Source of the DNA: a virus
Direction: 5' to 3' (one strand)
IMG/VR virus record: IMGVR_UViG_3300036791_000522
Coordinates: 1 to 36,144 of that record
Length of the DNA: 36,144 nt
Every line of letters starts with the position of its first letter. Positions within the stretch are counted from its first letter, which is position 1. The position numbers and the translations under genes are program-made. Of the stretch, positions 3,726 to 36,096 are shown in pieces. The notes beneath the pieces are model-generated. The model was given only the letters and a program-made list of their open reading frames with translations. It did no database searches and was not told where the DNA came from.

Positions 3726-4490
3726 TCAGAACGGTATGTCGTCGTCGGGGTCGGGGGTCGTAGTGGCGGCTTGGCGGACCTGGCGGATCACCTCGTCTCG
3801 GGTCGGGAGCGGGACGTAGGGGCGGGGTAGCTCGCGGGGTGGTTCGTGGCCGGCCTGGACGGGGCAGTCGGCGAGGGTGTGGGGCTTAGCGCAGACGGGG
3901 CAGCTTGGCGCCGCCCTCGGGGGAGCGGGCCGCCCGGCCGCGGAGCGGTAGGGCCGGGCGTCCCGCGCCGGGCTCGGTTCCGCGGGAGCCGCTGAGGGGG
4001 TAGGGGGAGCAGTCTTGCCCGTAGGGCAAGATGCTCTGCTCTGCTCTGCTACAGATTTGCTAGACAGGTTGCTAGTAGCCGCTGCTTGAGCAGGTGCCGT
4101 AGCAGGTGCCGTAGCGTTTGCTGTAGCACTTGCCATAGCGTTTGCTCTAGCAAAACCGCCCTTAGACCCGGCCTTACGGCGGACCTCGGAGAGCGCGGCG
4201 ATCTCGGCCCGGGACCGTTGTCTGTCCAGGTAGTCGTGTACTTGGTAAGAGTCGCCGACCTCCTCCACGAACCCGAGATCGAGGGCGAGCCGGCGGCCGG
4301 TCGCGCTCGCCAGTTCCCGCCACTTTCTCGCGCTGATCCACCCATCGGTTCTGAGCCGGTCGCAGTAACACCAAATCTCGATAAGCGTGCCCATGAGCGT
4401 TACGCGAGTGCTCGGCCCAAGTCCATCGAGTTTCGGATGGTCGGGCAGTTTGTTGTCTACTTTCACGTACTCGAACGGCTCCCGTGGCAT
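3726..4490 (-). CDS. Phage replication initiator (replisome-organizer type) with SSB-like C-terminal tip
   Basis: Start chosen at 4490 (MPREPFEYVKVDNKLPDHPK); the open extension to 4610 is a shadow of the next gene. Residues 1-100 resemble the N-terminal winged-helix/DnaD-like region of phage replication initiators, with a KLPDHPK opening, a WISARKWRELASATG helix and an EVGDSYQVHDYLDRQRS block. A low-complexity Ala/Thr linker (about 113-150) is encoded by 12-bp iterons. A CPVCAKPHTLADC zinc knuckle follows near residue 205. The last six residues are DDDIPF, identical to the conserved tip of bacterial SSB that binds replication and repair partners. The DNA coding for the linker is less GC-rich than the rest, which fits an origin inside the gene as in lambda O. 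Family call good; recruitment role inferred. Confidence 0.75.
   Translation of the reverse strand: MPREPFEYVKVDNKLPDHPKLDGLGPSTRVTLMGTLIEIWCYCDRLRTDGWISARKWRELASATGRRLALDLGFVEEVGDSYQVHDYLDRQRSRAEIAALSEVRRKAGSKGGFARANAMASATANATAPATAPAQAAATSNLSSKSVAEQSRASCPTGKTAPPTPSAAPAEPSPARDARPYRSAAGRPAPPRAAPSCPVCAKPHTLADCPVQAGHEPPRELPRPYVPLPTRDEVIRQVRQAATTTPDPDDDIPF
4013..4150. repeat. Iteron array and hairpin inside the initiator gene, candidate replication origin
   Basis: A perfect stem (TCTTGCCC-GTA-GGGCAAGA, 4013-4031) is followed by four 5-bp repeats of TGCTC/TGCTA (4032-4051). Then comes a run of 12-bp units around TGC at 4058, 4070, 4083, 4095, 4107, 4119, 4131 and 4143. Two units (4090-4101, 4102-4113) are identical, GCAGGTGCCGTA. 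The tract is visibly poorer in GC than its surroundings. Direct iterons in the middle of an initiator gene are the lambda-type origin layout. Confidence 0.55.
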
Positions 4491-4510
4491 TATCCCCAGC
4501 CTTATCCACA
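4490..4510. promoter_or_regulatory. DnaA box pair at the initiator start
   Basis: TTATCCACA at 4502-4510 is a perfect DnaA box, and TTATCCCCA at 4490-4498, exactly 12 bp away, differs at one base. They cover the stop of the upstream gene and the initiator start codon. They may serve origin function, autoregulation, or both. Confidence 0.5.
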
Positions 4511-7931: not shown

Positions 7932-8988
7932 CAGGAGCATCGCCGAGCGGTACCTCCTCCGTGCTCTCGGCGGCGGCGTCCTGCGCCGCCCTGGTGGCCT
8001 GTAGCGCCTCGCGCTGGTTGATCGAGGCGAGCGCGACGCCGGCCTCGGCGGCGGTTAGCTCGTTGGACGAGCCGATCACGCGGCCGATCCACCCGGAGAC
8101 CGCGGCGAGCGCGGCGGCGCGTTCGGTGATCCCTATTCGCTTCATCCCGGCCCAGAGGGCGGCCCGCTGCGTCGCCGATATCCCCGGACCCGGCACAGGC
8201 GGGGTCTCGGGCGACGCAGCGGACCTATCTGCCCCGCTAGCGGGGGGCTCGGGAGCGGGCGGGAGGGCGCCAGCCGGCGCGGGGGTACCTCGGGCCTTGC
8301 GCCGGCTGGCGCGGCGCGGCTTAGCCCCGGAGCGTGCGGGGGCCGCGCCCTCGGCCGGGGGCTGATCCGGCCGGTCTAGGGCGGGAGTCCACCGGGCGGC
8401 GTCCGGGCTGTGGTCGGCGTCGTCTAGGTCGCCGATCTCCTCGGACGTATAGGGCAGGCCGAGGAGCCCGTCCGAGTCCACCCAGCGCGCCATCTCGGCG
8501 GTAGCCCGCGCGACAAGCTGGTTCTGTGGGATGCGCTGCCAGGCGCCCCGGGGGTCGTTGAACCCGCGCGGCCCCATCTGCCGGGCCCGGTCGATAGTCC
8601 ACACCGATTCCATGACTATCTCTGAGTCGGCGCGGCGGCCCCGGACGACGGCGCGGGAGTTCGTAGACTCCACGACCCAGATGTCGTGGCCGTGGTGCTG
8701 GAGGAGCCCGCGGAGGGCGAGGGCGCGTAGCGAGGGCTGTCCCGAGCCCGGCGGGATCACGTCGATGGACTGGAGCGCGGCCATCGGGCCCATGCCTAGC
8801 TCGGTGCCGGTCAGGAGGGCGGCGGTTACCGTGGCGACGGTCGCGTCTAGGTCTAGGTTGTGCTGGTCGTCGTAGACCCGGAGCGAGTCGGGTACGAACG
8901 CCGTGCCGGCGAGGGCCCTGGCGATCCCGGCCGCGGCCTCTGCCTCCTCGGCCCAGTTGACGAGGCTGAGGGCGGCGCCGGTCGTCAC
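7924..8988 (-). CDS. recT: RecT-family single-strand annealing protein
   Basis: ATG at 8988 (ATGA overlap), 354 residues. The RecT core is clear in residues 45-190: LLTGTELGMGPMAALQSIDV, PSLRALALRGLLQHHGH, a basic VRGRRADSE segment, the WTIDRARQ helix, and ARATAEMARWVDSDGLLGLP followed by YTSEEIGDL. The C-terminal 130 residues are a Pro/Ala linker and a helical tail. RecT coats and anneals single-stranded DNA made by its exonuclease partner, encoded two genes upstream. The pair would serve phage recombination, repair or replication of concatemers. Confidence 0.88.
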   Translation of the reverse strand: MTTGAALSLVNWAEEAEAAAGIARALAGTAFVPDSLRVYDDQHNLDLDATVATVTAALLTGTELGMGPMAALQSIDVIPPGSGQPSLRALALRGLLQHHGHDIWVVESTNSRAVVRGRRADSEIVMESVWTIDRARQMGPRGFNDPRGAWQRIPQNQLVARATAEMARWVDSDGLLGLPYTSEEIGDLDDADHSPDAARWTPALDRPDQPPAEGAAPARSGAKPRRASRRKARGTPAPAGALPPAPEPPASGADRSAASPETPPVPGPGISATQRAALWAGMKRIGITERAAALAAVSGWIGRVIGSSNELTAAEAGVALASINQREALQATRAAQDAAAESTEEVPLGDAPDE

Positions 8989-9218
8989 CGGCCCGGTCCG
9001 GCGCGGAGGTAGTCGCGGGCGAGCTTCCCGGCGTGCCTGACGACCTCGGCGGCCTCGGGCGAATCGAGCATGAGGTTGACCTGGCCCCCGGCGTCATCGA
9101 ACAGTTCTACGACGACCCACGGGACGGCGGCGTCGGCGTACTCGGGGGGCGCGGCCGGGTTCGGGGCGCCGAATATATGGCGGACCCCGGCGATTCCGTG
9201 CAGTTCGACAGAGATCAT
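8985..9218 (-). CDS. Hypothetical protein between exonuclease and recT, 77 aa
   Basis: ATG at 9218 with a GAAGGG ribosome site eight bases upstream; the longer frame to 9311 crosses the hairpin and is rejected. Beta-rich: MISVELHGIAGVRHIFG and WVVVELFDDAGGQVNLML. The C-terminus is one helix. It could be an accessory protein of the RecT system, but nothing in the sequence proves this. Confidence 0.65.
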   Translation of the reverse strand: MISVELHGIAGVRHIFGAPNPAAPPEYADAAVPWVVVELFDDAGGQVNLMLDSPEAAEVVRHAGKLARDYLRAGPGR

Positions 9219-9255
9219 CGGTGGTACCCTTCCCGTGGTTGGAGTTTGTGGCAAG

Positions 9256-9291
9256 GCGGGCCGCGCCCTCGCAGCGGGGGGCGCGGCCCGC
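9256..9291 (-). terminator. Strong GC hairpin between exonuclease and downstream genes
   Basis: Arms GCGGGCCGCGCCC (9256-9268) and its perfect complement (9279-9291) around a 10-base loop, in the 89-bp gap after the exonuclease stop. There is no T-run, as is common for actinobacterial terminators or attenuators. Partial termination may set RecT levels. Confidence 0.5.
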
Positions 9292-9307
9292 GGCGTTCCG
9301 GGCGCGC

Positions 9308-10087
9308 TCATGCCGCCCTCGCCGGGGGGTCGATGATGTCGCCGACCCAGCCGCCGGCGTCGTCGTCGTGGTGGTAGAGCCAGGCGATCCTCTGGAAGTA
9401 GCCCCAGGTATCCGGCCCGGTATCGAGGGGGCGCAGGTCGGCGCCGTCCGACCGGATATGAACCGACCCGGCGCGTTCGATCCCGAGCCCGGCGAGCGGG
9501 TGCTCCTCGCCGACGCTGACCCCGGCGTCCATCGTCGTATAGGTCTCGGCGTTCAGGTAGGCGCAGGCTTGGAGCGCGGAGTCGCGGAAGATTCCCGAGC
9601 GGTTGGTCTTGAGTTCGAGCAGCCAGACCTGGCCGAGCATGTGCGCGACGAGATCAGCGGTCCCGCAGTAGCCGACCGCGCGGTTGGCGACGACTAGCTC
9701 TATCGCTACCGGGTCGGGGTCGAATCGGTCCAAGAACCGCCGGTAGCTCTGGACGTGGCCGCGGTACTCCTCGGGGACGTCGCCTAGCTCCTCGGCGCCC
9801 GCGCCGGCGGCGAGCTTCTCGGCGTAGCCGTGAACGGCGCGGCCCCTGATCTTCCCGCGGGTGGAGTCCTCGTAACGCCCGCCCTTGATCTTGGCGAGCC
9901 GGTCGGGTACCGGGAGGCGGGATAGCTCGGCCCAGTTGAAGCAGGCGTACTCGGCGGTCGCGGTCCCGGCCCAGCGGATCAGATTCTCGGCGGGGGCTTT
10001 TCTCAGGATCGTGGTTACGCCGGGTAGGTGCTGCTCGTCTACCTCGTAGCGGTGGCCGGACCCGTAGGCGCGGCGGGTGATGGTCAC
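9308..10087 (-). CDS. RecB/Cas4-like PD-(D/E)XK exonuclease
   Basis: ATG at 10087, ATGA overlap with the methyltransferase stop, 259 residues. The motifs are complete: GRAVHGYAE with H86, E130, D145 in GYCGTADLV, E158-L-K160 in WLLELKTN, and Q173-x3-Y177. This is the active site of RecB-type nucleases. The N-terminus LPGVTTILRKAP is typical of the phage PD-(D/E)XK exonucleases that accompany RecT. It should resect double-stranded ends to give RecT its substrate. Confidence 0.82.
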   Translation of the reverse strand: MTITRRAYGSGHRYEVDEQHLPGVTTILRKAPAENLIRWAGTATAEYACFNWAELSRLPVPDRLAKIKGGRYEDSTRGKIRGRAVHGYAEKLAAGAGAEELGDVPEEYRGHVQSYRRFLDRFDPDPVAIELVVANRAVGYCGTADLVAHMLGQVWLLELKTNRSGIFRDSALQACAYLNAETYTTMDAGVSVGEEHPLAGLGIERAGSVHIRSDGADLRPLDTGPDTWGYFQRIAWLYHHDDDAGGWVGDIIDPPARAA

Positions 10088-16708: not shown

Positions 16709-17587
16709 CTAGGCGATCTGCCAGGCGCGTAGCTGCGAACTGACCTTCACCGTGAACGACGCCGCGGCGGCGGTTGACGCCTGGCCGACCTGCAACAGCC
16801 CGGCCGCGGTGAACACGCCCCAGCCGCGGACGTGCGCGGTATAGCCCTGGCCGTTGACCAAAGCGTTGCTGCTCATGCCGCTTGTGATGCCCGAGCCGGC
16901 CTGATGCTTGAGCAGGGTCGAGGGGTAGCCGGGGTTGTTGACTACCTGGTCGTAGCTCGTCCAGCTTCCCATCGCGGAGTTCGCGGGAGTGGTCATCGAG
17001 AAGATCATGCTGTTGGTGGACTGCGCGGAGACGTAGATGTCGCCCTCCCAGACCCAGGTGCCCGGCGTGATGTTGACGATCAGCCCGGTCGCGGAGATCG
17101 AGGTACTCGAACACTGGGCCGCGTCGGCGGTTAGGTAGCTGGCCTGCACGATGCCGCGGGCCAGCAGGCCCGCCGGGGCGAACGTCATGGCCGACGCCGT
17201 GGCCGCGCTCGCCGGGACCGTGGCCGTGCCGAGCAGCACCCCGGTCCGGCCGCTCACCGGAGACGGCAGCCACGACAGGCCGTACTGCGACGTGCCATCG
17301 GGGTTGATGTCGGCCCACAGGGCGTCTACGCGCTGCGACGCGCCGCCCGCGGTCTCGTTAATCGTCGCCGGCGCCGTGGCGCCGATGATCGCGCTAGTCC
17401 CGTCGCCGCAGTCCACGCAGGCGATCCACGGGCCGATATTGACGACTAGCCCGGACCCGGCGCCGAGGGTCGGCGCCTGGATCAGCCCGAACGCCCCGTA
17501 GCTGAGCCCGCGAATGACGAGCCGGTCGTTTACGGCGTTGTAGTTCCCGGCCTGTCCCCACACCAGGGGGCCGCTCGGCGTAGTCAT
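16709..17587 (-). CDS. Putative tail fibre / receptor-binding protein, 292 aa
   Basis: ATG at 17587 (ATGA overlap). The N-terminal 140 residues follow the phage baseplate/fibre style (NAVNDRLVIRGLSYGAFGLI, a VDALWADINPDG block, and a SPVSGRTGVLLGTATVPA block), and the C-terminal half is Ser/Thr/Gly-rich beta structure (TPGTWVWEGDIYVSAQS). Such domains form trimeric host-binding tips. Last structural gene before lysis. Confidence 0.65.
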   Translation of the reverse strand: MTTPSGPLVWGQAGNYNAVNDRLVIRGLSYGAFGLIQAPTLGAGSGLVVNIGPWIACVDCGDGTSAIIGATAPATINETAGGASQRVDALWADINPDGTSQYGLSWLPSPVSGRTGVLLGTATVPASAATASAMTFAPAGLLARGIVQASYLTADAAQCSSTSISATGLIVNITPGTWVWEGDIYVSAQSTNSMIFSMTTPANSAMGSWTSYDQVVNNPGYPSTLLKHQAGSGITSGMSSNALVNGQGYTAHVRGWGVFTAAGLLQVGQASTAAAASFTVKVSSQLRAWQIA

Positions 17588-19542
17588 GGGTTAATCCCTC
17601 CTGGGGGCGCGGCGAGCGAATTGTGGAAGATGCCCGCGGTTTTCTTGTGCAGGTCTTTTAGCTGGGCGGACAGGGAGGCGTAGCGGCGCGGGTGCGGCAG
17701 GGTGATCGCTACCGTCCACGTCGCGGTCCCGGCGCCGGCGTCAACCTGGACCGCGGTAAGGCGCCCGGTCGCGTTCAGCCCGGCCGGGACGAGCGGGTCG
17801 GCGAGGGCAACGCTTACGTCGTCGCCGACGCCGTAGCTGCCGAGCGGCGGCGACATGAGCGGCATCACGGCCTCTAGCGCGAGGGCCGGGGTCGCGTAGC
17901 TCTGCGAGTAGGCGGCGGCGTACTCGTTGAGCGTCGAGGCGACCGAGACGCCCTGCCAGTCGTCTACGTGGTCAAGCTCGGGGACGCCGGCCTGCGGCGC
18001 GACGATTACCACGACGGGCTTAGTCGCGGTCGTCGGCGAGTTCGGCGGGAGGTCGCCTACGGCAAACGTCCGGGTCCGGAGCATGTCGCCCGCCCAGGTG
18101 GTCCGGAATGAGATCGCGCCATCGGGGACGACGACCGCGAGGTTCCCGGCGGTCCCGACCCGCGGGTAGGCGATCTTGAGCGTGCAGATCGGGTCCGCCG
18201 GGCTGCTGTATTCGGACCGGAACTCGGGCCCGCTGATTACCTGCGATAGCTCGGTGAGCAACTGGTCGCGGCTGGATTGCAGGAACGTGTAGGTCCGGTC
18301 GCGGGCCTGCCCGGACCCGGGCGAGGTGACGACCGGGACGCCGATGTTCGCCAGCGGCGAGGCGAGGTCGGCGGCGATTGCGGTCTGCTCGGCCGCGGCG
18401 TAGGTGTGGTTCAGGGCGTACTGCTTGAGCGCGAGATAGCCCGGTAGCTCGCTCAGCGCGACCGTAACGGTCTGCGAGCCGACGTCGGTTACCCCGGTAG
18501 GGCAGCCGGCCCATACCGGCTGGCCGCCGTAGAACGCCCACAGGCGCCACGTCCAAAGCTGCATGAGCATCGCCCGGGGCAGCGACGAGCCGGGGCCGAC
18601 CGCGATGGTCGCCTCCCCGGAGCCGAACCCGGAGAGTTGCCAGTTGCAGGTAAAGGCGACGACCTGGACCGGGCCGATATCGGCCCACGGCGGGACCGCG
18701 TTATCGGCCCAGAACGTCCAGGGCATCGCGCCGCCAGAGATCACGGCGGTACCTCCTTGCGCGTAGCCGGTGGCCGCGACGGCGAAGGCGACCCCGACCG
18801 CGGCGCTGCCGTTGAACAGCCCCAGGACCGTGCCGGCCGCCGTTACCGTGGCCGAGATAGCGCAGGCGACCCCGGCGCTGCTCAGGACCGAGCCTGCGGC
18901 GCTGACGGCGGCGGTGACGGTCGCGGCGGCCTGCCCGGTAACCGTGACGAGCCCGGCCGCGGTGATCGTGGCGGTTACGGCGCGGGCGGCGCCGCTGCCG
19001 AGGGCGAGCGAGCCCGCGGCGGCGACCGTCGCGGCGACCGGGAGGGCGGCGCCGCTGCCTACGGTCAGCGACCCGGCGGCGGTTACCGTCGCGGTCCAGG
19101 CCAGAGCGGCTAGCCCTCCGGTCCCGACCGCGCCGGCCGCGGTGATCGTCGCCGCGGCGGCGACCGTCGCGCCGCTGCCGAACGCTACGAACCCGGCCGC
19201 GGCGACCGTGGCCGCGATGCTGAGGCTGGCGGCGCCGGCGACGGCGGGCACTACGGCCCCGGCGGCGGCGACCGCTGCCGTTACCGGCCTGGACGCCTGC
19301 CCCATGAAGGTGACCGCGCCCGCGGCGGCGACCGTAGCGGTTACCGGCCTCGTCGCCTGCCCTAGGAACGTGACCGACCCGGCGGCGGCGACCGCGGCGG
19401 TTATCGGCCGGGTCGCGGACTGGCTGACCGCTACGAACCCGGCGGCGCTGATCGTGGCCGTGATGGCGCTAGCCACGTCACCGCTGACGGTGGCGTAGCT
19501 CCACGAGTAGGTGCGCGGGTAGACCCGCGGCGCGCTGGCCAC
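17584..19542 (-). CDS. Minor tail protein with N-terminal 20-residue repeat array, 652 aa
   Basis: ATG at 19542. Residues about 24-270 consist of roughly twelve units of about 20 residues, near consensus V-T-A-T-V-A-A-A-G-A-V-T-F-x-G-Q-A-x-R-P. The rest resembles the Siphovirus ReqiPepy6 Gp37-like minor tail family: a FTCNWQLSGFGSGEATIAV opening, FYGGQPVWAGCPTGV, then TVALSELPGYLALKQYALNH, and a C-terminal TWTVAITLPHPRRYASL. The C-terminal part probably binds the tail tip. The alternating hydrophobic repeats suggest a beta-solenoid or flexible stalk. The array is unusual for this family. Confidence 0.75.
   Translation of the reverse strand: MASAPRVYPRTYSWSYATVSGDVASAITATISAAGFVAVSQSATRPITAAVAAAGSVTFLGQATRPVTATVAAAGAVTFMGQASRPVTAAVAAAGAVVPAVAGAASLSIAATVAAAGFVAFGSGATVAAAATITAAGAVGTGGLAALAWTATVTAAGSLTVGSGAALPVAATVAAAGSLALGSGAARAVTATITAAGLVTVTGQAAATVTAAVSAAGSVLSSAGVACAISATVTAAGTVLGLFNGSAAVGVAFAVAATGYAQGGTAVISGGAMPWTFWADNAVPPWADIGPVQVVAFTCNWQLSGFGSGEATIAVGPGSSLPRAMLMQLWTWRLWAFYGGQPVWAGCPTGVTDVGSQTVTVALSELPGYLALKQYALNHTYAAAEQTAIAADLASPLANIGVPVVTSPGSGQARDRTYTFLQSSRDQLLTELSQVISGPEFRSEYSSPADPICTLKIAYPRVGTAGNLAVVVPDGAISFRTTWAGDMLRTRTFAVGDLPPNSPTTATKPVVVIVAPQAGVPELDHVDDWQGVSVASTLNEYAAAYSQSYATPALALEAVMPLMSPPLGSYGVGDDVSVALADPLVPAGLNATGRLTAVQVDAGAGTATWTVAITLPHPRRYASLSAQLKDLHKKTAGIFHNSLAAPPGGINP
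18730..19480. repeat. About twelve tandem ~60-bp coding repeats
   Basis: Each unit on the plus strand reads like CCGGCGGCGGCGACCGTAGCGGTTACCGG with variation; units diverge by several bases, so the array is old or under selection. It codes for the Ala/Thr/Val repeats of the minor tail protein and can change length by slippage or recombination. Confidence 0.75.
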
Positions 19543-32956: not shown

Positions 32957-33589
32957 TTACTTCGCGGCCGAGTCGTCGGTCGCGGGGGCGGTCGCGGGGG
33001 CGTCGGCGGCCTTCGCGGCGGCCCGCTTGCAGCCGGCGCACCAGACGGCGCGGTCGGCCTTACGGCCCTTCGCCTCGCCGTCCTTCGCGGACTCGGCGGG
33101 GGTCGTCCGGCCGTGCTCGTTGCACAGGACGAGCCAGGTCGGGCCCTCGCCCTCGGCGTCCTTCGCGCGGCGGACGAGCGAGTGGGAGGCGTGCGGCCAC
33201 TGAATCTCGTAGCCGGCGGGGAGCTTCTCGCCGAGCTTCTCGGTTAGCGCGGCGATCTGCTCGTCGCGGGTCGGGCGGGGCGCCTTCGGCTCGGCGTCCT
33301 TCGCGGCCTTCGCGGCGGCCTTCTCGGCGGCCTTCGCCTCGCGGGCGGCCTTCGCGGCGGCGGCCTTCGCCTCGCGCGCGGCCTTTACCTCGGCGGCGTT
33401 CGCGGCCTTCAACTCGTCGGCCTCGCGGTCGGCGACCGGGTTGCCGGTCTTAGCGGCGCCCCGGGTCTTACGGGTCGAGGTCGTCGCCTTCGCGGCGTCG
33501 GCGGTCGCGCGGAGGTCGTCGGTCGCGGTCTTGATCTCCTCGGTCGAGGGGGTCGCGGTCGCGCCGGCGGCGGGGGTCGTGCTGGTCAT
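32957..33589 (-). CDS. Histone H1-like Lys/Ala-rich protein with Cys/His tail, 210 aa
   Basis: ATG at 33589 with GGAAGGAACCACC. An N-terminal Thr/Ala part and a tract around 65-100 (AAREAKAAAAKAAREAKAAE, then KAAAKAAKDAEPKAP) resemble the tail of eukaryotic H1 and of bacterial H1-like proteins such as HupB. A globular part follows (QIAALTEKLGEKLPAGYEIQ), then LVLCNEHGR and VWCAGCK, a possible zinc site. It may compact DNA or affect packaging; the regular A-K repeats are unlike the rest of the genome. Confidence 0.65.
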   Translation of the reverse strand: MTSTTPAAGATATPSTEEIKTATDDLRATADAAKATTSTRKTRGAAKTGNPVADREADELKAANAAEVKAAREAKAAAAKAAREAKAAEKAAAKAAKDAEPKAPRPTRDEQIAALTEKLGEKLPAGYEIQWPHASHSLVRRAKDAEGEGPTWLVLCNEHGRTTPAESAKDGEAKGRKADRAVWCAGCKRAAAKAADAPATAPATDDSAAK

Positions 33590-33667
33590 GGCGGTGGTTC
33601 CTTCCGTTCGGGGCCCGGCGCCTTGCGCGCCCGACCTCCACAGGAGGTAACGGTCCCAACACGGGGA

Positions 33668-33696
33668 GTATTCCCAACCGGGATGGTAGCCATCAA
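33668..33696 (-). promoter_or_regulatory. Leftward promoter candidate for the morphogenesis block
   Basis: TTGATG (33696-33691), 17-base spacer, GAATAC (33673-33668) on the minus strand, in the least GC-rich part of the gap. The leader would be about 75 bases. Confidence 0.4.
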
Positions 33697-33766
33697 CTTT
33701 TTTACTGCCGCCGCGGCCCGCGGTCGTCCCGGGACGCGGGGCCCGGCCGGGTAACATCAGAGAGCC

Positions 33767-34362: not shown

Positions 34363-35358
34363 CTACTCCCATCTCGCGGCGCGGGCCGCGACCCGCTCGG
34401 CGGCGTCGGCCTGGACGGCGGCGGCGACCCCGGCCGATAGCTCGCGGAGCCGCTCGCCGACCGCGGCGTAGAGCCCGGCGTCGGTGACGACCAGCGGGGT
34501 ACGGATCGCGCCCGTCCTCATGCTGTGGAATACCCGGGCGGTCCCGCGCCCGTTCGCGTGCCCGCGGTGAACCGAGAGCCGCGCCATCTCCGGGGCGACC
34601 CGCTGGAGCCCGACCGACCGCCGCTCGTCCCGGTAGAACGGGCGCATCCCGCCGCCCTGCCGGTGATGATCCTTGAGGTAGTGCAGCGGCAGGACGAGGG
34701 CCGCGGTCGCCGCGGTCGGGTCGGCGCCGTACTGGTAGGCGTGGAGGATGTCCTCCTCGATGGGCCCGTAGTAGGGCAGCCGCCCGGCGCCGACGACCTC
34801 CAAGAACAGCGAGTAGGGAAACCCGGCGCGGGCGACCCGGCCGACCTCGCCCTGCGGCGTAACGGCGTCCAGCTTCGCCCCGGTCATCACCGAGTTCGTC
34901 GCCAGGGTCACCGCGGCGAGGAGGTCGGCGAACAGGCCGAGCCCGCCCGCGGCGTCCGCGGCCCGCCGCCCGGCGCCGTACCCGGTGAACAGCTTGACCT
35001 GCCGGATATTGTCGTCAAGCTGGAGCACCGCCCAGCAGCCGCGCGCCTCCGCGGTCCGGCACGCCCACTCCCGCTCGGTGAAGCAGCCCAGGAACGCGCC
35101 CGGCGCGAACGGGTCCGGCCCTATCCAGTGCGCGGCGGCGTAGGGCTCGGCCTCGGCGAGCGGGTAGCCGACGACCTCCCAGCGGTCGCGCTCGTAGCCC
35201 GCGGCCCGGTCGTCGCGGACGAGCCAAACCGGGTCGGCGGTCACGCCTTCCAGCGCGGCGAGGAGCCGGCGCGTCGGCCGGTCCGCCAGAGCCGGGCGGC
35301 CCCCGGAGATCACGACCGGGAGCACCCCGGCGAGCCACCTAGCGGGCGTGACGGACAT
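34363..35358 (-). CDS. Putative DNA-base glycosyltransferase, TET-associated (TAGT) type, 331 aa
   Basis: ATG at 35358 overlapping the ParB-like gene by 20 bp. The segment CWAVLQLDDNIRQVKLF (D115-D116) is the donor-binding DD motif seen in TET/JBP-associated glycosyltransferases of phages. It is followed by GFPYSLFLEVVGAGRLPYYG, EEDILHAYQYG and LHYLKDHHRQGGGMRPFYRD, then a RARVFHS-like C-terminal block (GRGTARVFHSMRTG). Enzymes of this type are thought to add sugars to hydroxymethylated bases in DNA. The ParB-type neighbour fits the known context. No TET/JBP oxygenase is seen. From memory of the family; moderate confidence. Confidence 0.6.
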   Translation of the reverse strand: MSVTPARWLAGVLPVVISGGRPALADRPTRRLLAALEGVTADPVWLVRDDRAAGYERDRWEVVGYPLAEAEPYAAAHWIGPDPFAPGAFLGCFTEREWACRTAEARGCWAVLQLDDNIRQVKLFTGYGAGRRAADAAGGLGLFADLLAAVTLATNSVMTGAKLDAVTPQGEVGRVARAGFPYSLFLEVVGAGRLPYYGPIEEDILHAYQYGADPTAATAALVLPLHYLKDHHRQGGGMRPFYRDERRSVGLQRVAPEMARLSVHRGHANGRGTARVFHSMRTGAIRTPLVVTDAGLYAAVGERLRELSAGVAAAVQADAAERVAARAARWE

Positions 35359-35917
35359 TGACCACCCCCGGCAGGGCGAGCAGCGCGGGGCCCGCCCGGT
35401 CCGCGGCCTCCTGCGAGTCGAACACCACCGTCAGCGCGGCCTGAGAGCCGAGGATCGCCGGCGCCCCGTCGTCGCCGAACAGCCCGCCGCCCTCGGCGTC
35501 CGCGGCCGGGAGCCCCGCGACTATCGCCCCCCAGTCGGCGAGGTCGAGCACCCCGGCGAAATCATCGAGCCCGGACAGCTCGGCCGCCAGGACGCCGTAG
35601 TCCCACGCCGTATAGTCGTGCGTCCGGTTGTCGGCGATCCGGTACGCCCGGACCTGCTTCGCCGAGAGGTGATCGGCGTAGACCGCCGGGCCCTCGGCCG
35701 CGCCGAGCGAGAGGGCCGCCCGGTGCCGGACGTGACCGACGACGAGCACCCGCTCCCGGTCGATCACTAGCGGCTGCTGCCAGCCGAACTCGCGCAGCGA
35801 CGCCGCCGTCTGCTCGACCGCCTTGGCCGTGATGAGCCGCGCGTTCGCCGGGTACGGCCGGATGGACGCGAGCGGGAGCCGGTGAACCTGGCCGAGGTCG
35901 CGCAGCGTCCCGGTCAC
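35339..35917 (-). CDS. ParB/Srx-domain protein, 192 aa
   Basis: GTG at 35917 (GTGA overlap). The ParB N-terminal domain is plain: LASIRPYPANARLIT, AVEQTAASLREFGWQQPLVI, and GHVRHRAALSLG (61-72). It continues RAYRIADNRTHDYTAWDYGV as in phage ParB proteins linked to DNA-modification genes. The C-terminus is a small alpha/beta part (LTVVFDSQEAADRAG). Not a partition protein by context; it may direct modification enzymes or act as a nuclease. Confidence 0.8.
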   Translation of the reverse strand: MTGTLRDLGQVHRLPLASIRPYPANARLITAKAVEQTAASLREFGWQQPLVIDRERVLVVGHVRHRAALSLGAAEGPAVYADHLSAKQVRAYRIADNRTHDYTAWDYGVLAAELSGLDDFAGVLDLADWGAIVAGLPAADAEGGGLFGDDGAPAILGSQAALTVVFDSQEAADRAGPALLALPGVVNVRHAR

Positions 35918-36096
35918 GGGCGCGGCCCGGCGTCGTCGGGGTCGGGCGCCTCGGTCGCGGCGGCGTAGCGGCCGACGATGTAGGCGTGGGCGGCGGCGAT
36001 CTGCTCCGCGGCGGACGGCGGCCGGTGATCCCGGCGCCACGGGAGCGGCGGGACGGTCTGCATCAGCCCGCGCGCCTCGGCCGGCCCCCCGGTCAC
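35914..36096 (-). CDS. Small hypothetical protein, 60 aa
   Basis: GTG at 36096 overlaps the TGA of the HNH gene when the ends are joined (GTGA). A basic/Pro N-terminal half is followed by a helix (AAEQIAAAHAYIVGRYAAA) and an acidic tail. Unknown. Confidence 0.6.
   Translation of the reverse strand: MTGGPAEARGLMQTVPPLPWRRDHRPPSAAEQIAAAHAYIVGRYAAATEAPDPDDAGPRP

Follow-up and report, generated by a model that had tools for sequence, protein, structure and literature searches.

Initiator gene and repeats of the window

The window, by which we mean the whole stretch of DNA analysed, comprises an entire virus record of 36,144 bases with a GC content of about 72%. Its minus strand carries nearly all likely genes, and the record also encodes serine integrase, RecT, exonuclease, terminase, portal and tape-measure genes. 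The phage collection searched held no near-identical phage for the first 25 kb, and scanning viral contigs with single proteins (the initiator or RecT) found no relatives. A ParB-like domain protein is encoded near the terminase small-subunit gene (35339–36040, minus strand) and resembles ParB-like nuclease/methyltransferase families. Tandem repeats occur inside two ORFs without a PHROG match. They are 60-bp repeats at 18948–19416, in a 652-aa ORF at 17584–19542, and GCGGCCTTC-type repeats at 33303–33428, in an ORF at 32957–33757.

The initiator gene lies at 3726–4490 on the minus strand, with its ATG at 4490, and encodes 254 amino acids. It was assigned by PHROG and tblastn searches. The protein matched PHROG 3926, 'replication initiation protein' (E = 5.6e-19, residues 7–177), and PHROG 2447 (E = 1.6e-11). 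By tblastn, we found homologues in Arthrobacter, Gordonia and Glutamicibacter phages that align over residues 8–112, with 33–39% identity among the matches listed. The Pfam search returned no homologous family for the window's initiator. RepA_N (PF06970) did not match it, and Phage_rep_O was absent for it and for 13 relatives. PF09681 (Phage_rep_org_N) did not match it either and was matched by one of 14 members of the initiator family (E = 0.0028). A profile search of solved structures gave no homologue.

AlphaFold2 predicted an N-terminal winged-helix domain (residues 10–92; 4215–4463, minus strand), the most conserved part of the family, and a long helix after it that extends to about residue 126. 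Block-mean pLDDT was 86–97 across residues 21–80. The top fold matches of the N-domain were mostly winged helices, every one with Z below 8, and Foldseek gave no match at E 0.001 or better. The predicted fold aligned to the RepA_N structures 5kbj, 4pt7 and 4pql with Z of 6.0–6.2 over 81–82 residues (trust level 8). This likeness is suggestive only, and winged helices other than RepA_N scored equally or higher.

Along the gene strand (4490 to 3726), the winged-helix domain is followed by 12-bp repeats, 5-bp repeats and a hairpin. Eight TGC-centred 12-bp iterons had been proposed in the linker-coding part by a sequence-only reading of this DNA. They were confirmed at 4055–4151 (minus strand), starting 339 nt downstream of the start codon. 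The best copies read GCTANRGCAANY on the gene strand, with half-palindromes TTGCTNNAGCAA. The TGC triplets are at 4058, 4070, 4083, 4095, 4107, 4119, 4131 and 4143, so that the spacings are 12, 13, 12, 12, 12, 12 and 12 bp, one being 13 instead of 12. Six TGC exactly 12 bp apart make the longest such run in the window; the next best is 2. Tandem-repeat scores were judged against synonymous and dinucleotide shuffles, the synonymous ones permuting codons within the gene and keeping protein and codon usage. The 12-bp score was 81, a value that none of 300 synonymous-codon shuffles reached. Lag-12 identity alone was dropped as a detector because codon periodicity lifts its background in GC-rich coding DNA.

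Codon choice was also analysed. GC3 within initiator residues 113–160 was 0.25 and 0.38, versus 0.87 in residues 179–254, and residues 113–160 use codons much rarer than is usual for this phage. Part of this drift is gene-wide, because residues 1–112 (GC3 of 0.76) also use somewhat rare codons. In addition, a 16-base pattern was taken solely from the non-coding iterons of a distant relative, locus L026, whose initiator is 31% identical. The pattern matched the window four times against an expectation of 0.5. All four matches were within 4100–4151, and one agreed at 16 of 16 bases. Because the synonymous shuffles, the rare codons and the non-coding pattern all say so, the repeats of the window are a DNA signal rather than a by-product of the protein.

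The short-repeat tract is located at 4032–4050 (minus strand). It reads TGCTC ×3.8 on the plus strand and AGCAG on the gene strand, which is T-free here, and its TGC triplets at 4032, 4037, 4042 and 4047 correspond to the four 5-bp repeats claimed earlier. The 5-bp score of 38 was reached in 3 of 300 synonymous shuffles. Directly after the short repeats, a perfect 8-bp hairpin with a 3-nt loop, TCTTGCCC-GTA-GGGCAAGA, occupies 4013–4031, as had also been read; hairpins as good were present in 2% of other 60-bp segments. An intrinsic terminator was ruled out, the gene strand having no T-run after the stem. The earlier observation that the iteron tract is less GC-rich than its surroundings held (AT 0.44 for the whole tract versus 0.28 in the window, 99th percentile). 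The 60 bp beyond the short repeats were 30% AT (61st percentile). No AT-rich unwinding tract was found beside the iterons in the window; T-poor short repeats occupy its place.

Two DnaA boxes are present at the start of the gene, both on the plus strand. The box at 4490–4498 (TTATCCCCA) has one mismatch, and the box at 4502–4510 (TTATCCACA) matches the consensus exactly. An exact box appeared in 8 of 400 shuffles and the pair in none of 400. The pair, including a perfect member, had thus been read correctly. The boxes do not cover the start codon (4490–4488), as had been stated, and sit just upstream of it with an overlap at its first base. A check of the origin by cumulative GC skew had been suggested as well. 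When run, it gave no vote either way. The curve climbs along nearly the whole record and marks no origin, because nearly all genes share one strand.

The module in related loci

Relatives were gathered through the N-domain, with the repeats not used, and the DNA after the N-domain was read in 28 loci including the window. The sources were phage records, Bifidobacterium, virus contigs and two circular records of plasmids. The relatives were not sampled at random and phages within a cluster do not count as independent, so percentages are descriptive. An alignment of seven initiator sequences was too diverse to scan with.

A 10–13-bp array and then a 5–7-bp array were seen by eye in nearly all 28 loci. 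A strict rule was also applied, in which a 12-bp-type score of at least 40 is followed within 45 bp by a 5–7-bp score of at least 28. Within 350 bp of the N-domain, 18 of the 28 loci (the window and 17 others) had both arrays by this rule, whereas the remaining 411 kb contained 3 occurrences on both strands, an expectation of 0.003 per 350 bp. The rule missed 10 loci, some of which show one element alone by the rule.

Held-out prophages were obtained by searching 396 actinobacterial genomes, of which nine matched, one already known. Both arrays were present by the strict rule in three of seven distinct loci (L052, L053 and L055). L048 had the 12-bp array only, L049 and L050, which are identical, had short repeats only, and L051 had weak short repeats only. 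In L054, neither element was found by the rule.

The iteron GCTANRGCAANY is common to the window, L026, L032, L010 and L042. Other iterons are CGATCACAAATG in ArV1, CAAAACGCATGC in L012 and GTCACGCGTGAC in L034. The short-repeat units of relatives include CAGAGA, GCAGAG, CCCGA, ACCAGA, ACCATTA and AGAGG. On the gene strand, T made up 3.5% of short-repeat tracts versus 13.4% of the loci (25 loci, Wilcoxon p = 5e-5).

The tract extends partly or wholly beyond the stop codon in about ten relatives. In L002, L004, L006, L021, L026, L029/L030 and L032, the array follows the stop codon or sets in right at it. It begins at the stop in L011, spans it in L042 and is coding in the others. L010 is the closest relative found (47% identity in the N-domain). 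Its 12-mers are the same but shifted by one reading frame, which changes the protein while the DNA is constant. Homologues that kept the Ala/Thr linker and lost the 12-bp period would have spoken against the sequence-only reading; the opposite was seen, with homologues keeping the period and losing the linker.

We also searched the flanks of the short repeats. The ends of these repeats were set partly by eye for the stem and box tests. By these offsets, a stem within the top 10% of background followed the short repeats in 11 of 27 loci, which does not support the hairpin as a family-wide element, and 0 of 26 other loci tested had a matching DnaA box near the initiator gene. Because those 26 loci had no such box, a role of DnaA in the window is a local possibility. 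In L042 (4321–4650), the iteron array is split by about 130 bp that contain a perfect DnaA box; its first part runs across the stop codon, and GCAGAG repeats and a hairpin come after its second part.

A recurring word similar to GTCACCTAA, often with CGCGCG after it, was noticed roughly 15–90 bp past the short repeats in L003, L005, L007, L021, L023, L031, L033, L034 and others. With one mismatch allowed it occurred in 11 of 27 loci, a count not above that of the top words from random segments, and it is absent from the window. A motif search beyond the short repeats was abandoned because GC-rich words swamped the result.

In Adora and CheeseTouch, an annotated helicase gene directly follows the initiator gene. 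Two of the loci, L026 (NZ_CP127391, Propionimicrobium) and L025 (NZ_CP045481), are circular 'plasmid' records of about 40 kb with a phage-type initiator and the origin module. They may be phage-plasmids.

Comparison with known origins

Origins inside initiator genes are already known as a layout; for the actinophage family, our search, conducted largely outside subscription journals, found no published description of the module. The lambda ori inside gene O (PMC7466680, PMC3349717) and the SPP1 oriL within gene 38, encoding gp38 (PMC6316719), are experimentally established. In pSK41, Rep uses its 120-residue N-domain to bind boxes midway along rep, and ori codes for the linker (PMC5703833). 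Direct repeats beside repA are parS in some mycobacteriophages, and in the RepA mycobacteriophages Miko, Rachaly and Jeeves no repeats are reported near repA, the origin being presumed in or beside that gene (PMC7157519).

In both lambda and the window, the iterons lie inside the initiator gene, just past the N-terminal domain. They start 348 nt from the start codon in lambda O, by annotation, and 339 nt in the window. In both, the iterons give way to a strand-asymmetric tract that carries short A/G repeats (PMC3349717); in lambda, this stretch has AAAAG-type repeats and 15% T. The close offset and the short repeats directly after the iterons support the lambda-O layout proposed earlier. There are also differences. 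The lambda iterons are 18 bp long with spacers, whereas those of the window are 12 bp and head-to-tail. The second tract is AT-rich in lambda but repeat-like, T-poor and not AT-rich in the window. In the actinophage family, unlike in lambda, the module is free to lie within the gene or beyond it. Again unlike lambda, Phage_rep_O homology was not found, and no helicase-loader gene was identified beside the window's initiator.

The RepA_N plasmids pSK41 and pTZ2162 resemble the window by anatomy, with an origin in the middle of rep that encodes the linker (PMC5703833). Their N-domain has about 120 residues, and the window's initiator differs in giving no RepA_N match in Pfam. Firmicute replisome organisers (TP901-1 Rep and SPP1 gp38; PF09681) have iterons in the initiator gene, as the window does, but the length and sequence of the repeats differ. 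RepA-type mycobacteriophages, compared by description, have an actinophage initiator and an origin presumed in or beside repA; unlike the window, they have no repeats there.

Virus contigs were also searched by DNA only, with a 22-base iteron pattern, and two loci were found, L045 and L044. L044 was rejected as a module; the architecture is missing and the match looks like chance. L045 is on a contig of 31% GC. The pattern is in the middle of a DUF6291 gene at 8921–9670 on the minus strand (Pfam PF19808, E = 1e-11), in which GCTAAAGCAAAC iterons and then ACAGAA-type repeats lie in the linker. Its protein did not match the N-domain profile built here at E 1. In the rep gene of TP901-1, a short-repeat stretch poor in T comes after 15-bp repeats. 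L045 and TP901-1 are single examples and do not represent a survey.

A probable origin inside its own initiator gene

Judging from the sequence, 4013–4151 is very probably (roughly 0.86) a phage replication origin inside its own initiator gene, of the lambda-O, SPP1 or RepA_N type. We infer that the N-terminal winged helix would bind the eight 12-bp iterons and assemble on them as a nucleoprotein complex. Next to the iterons, the T-poor short-repeat tract would then open or be kept single-stranded, the host helicase would be loaded there, and bidirectional theta replication would start. DnaA, at the two boxes by the start codon, possibly helps. The peptide encoded by the iterons would be a flexible linker only.

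The alternatives differ in what the repeats would do. They might be an operator for self-repression or a parS-like partition site, with replication beginning elsewhere, and a DNA-binding winged helix beside its own repeats, the ParB-like protein of the record and the parS repeats adjacent to repA in some mycobacteriophages (PMC7157519) all fit this idea. We consider it unlikely. A tract lying some 340 nt beyond the start codon, and past the stop codon in many relatives, is poorly placed for an operator, and the short repeats recur with the iterons as a second element. For partition, the ParB-like protein is 31 kb away and resembles phage nuclease/methyltransferase families, and no ParA was identified among the ORFs scanned, which were part of the window's ORFs. 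Autoregulation through the same iterons would be compatible with origin function.

It is less probable still that DnaA is the main initiator, with the boxes at 4490–4510 as the functional origin and the iterons as accessories. The window's box pair, which no shuffle reproduced, and the perfect box between the two iteron arrays of L042 favour it; the iterons and short repeats, however, recur in relatives, and a matching box near the gene was lacking in the other 26 loci tested. The 12-bp period could also be thought a by-product of an Ala/Thr/Pro-rich linker made of four-residue protein repeats, as 12 bp equal four codons and the linker reads ATANATAPATAPA. We regard this as scarcely credible. 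It conflicts with the synonymous shuffles (0 of 300) and with rare codons throughout, and the same 12-mers are read in a different frame in L010 and are non-coding in L026, L032 and L006. The relatives with non-coding iterons refute it.

Of the elements of the proposed origin, the T-poor short-repeat tract is explained least well. Many phage initiators from different families might share a two-part plan, winged-helix iterons and then 5–7-bp repeats almost T-free on the gene strand, in a module free to sit in coding or non-coding DNA beside the gene. As the tract would not have to be AT-rich in GC-rich phages, the functional feature may then be its strand-biased repeat rather than easy melting. 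We put this forward tentatively, at somewhat less than even odds. Such a repeat may be, for example, a single-strand loading site for initiator or helicase. The conserved T-poor short repeats thus give a simple hypothesis for the strand-opening site where the tract is not AT-rich. Many actinobacterial phages, a large group with initiators mostly annotated as hypothetical or 'replication initiation protein', gain a candidate origin with this module, which would also supply ready-made origins for plasmids in Arthrobacter, Gordonia and Mycobacterium.

The C-terminus of the window's initiator was also inspected. Its last six residues, DDDIPF (3729–3746, minus strand), are identical to the bacterial SSB tip, and no other matching C-terminal tip was seen among the window's ORFs and the loci compared. 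The SSB tip engages primase and other partners (PMC5872125). If real, the DDDIPF tip, a single case, would be a route to recruit host replication proteins. A zinc-knuckle-like stretch, CPVCAKPHTLADC, lies upstream of it.
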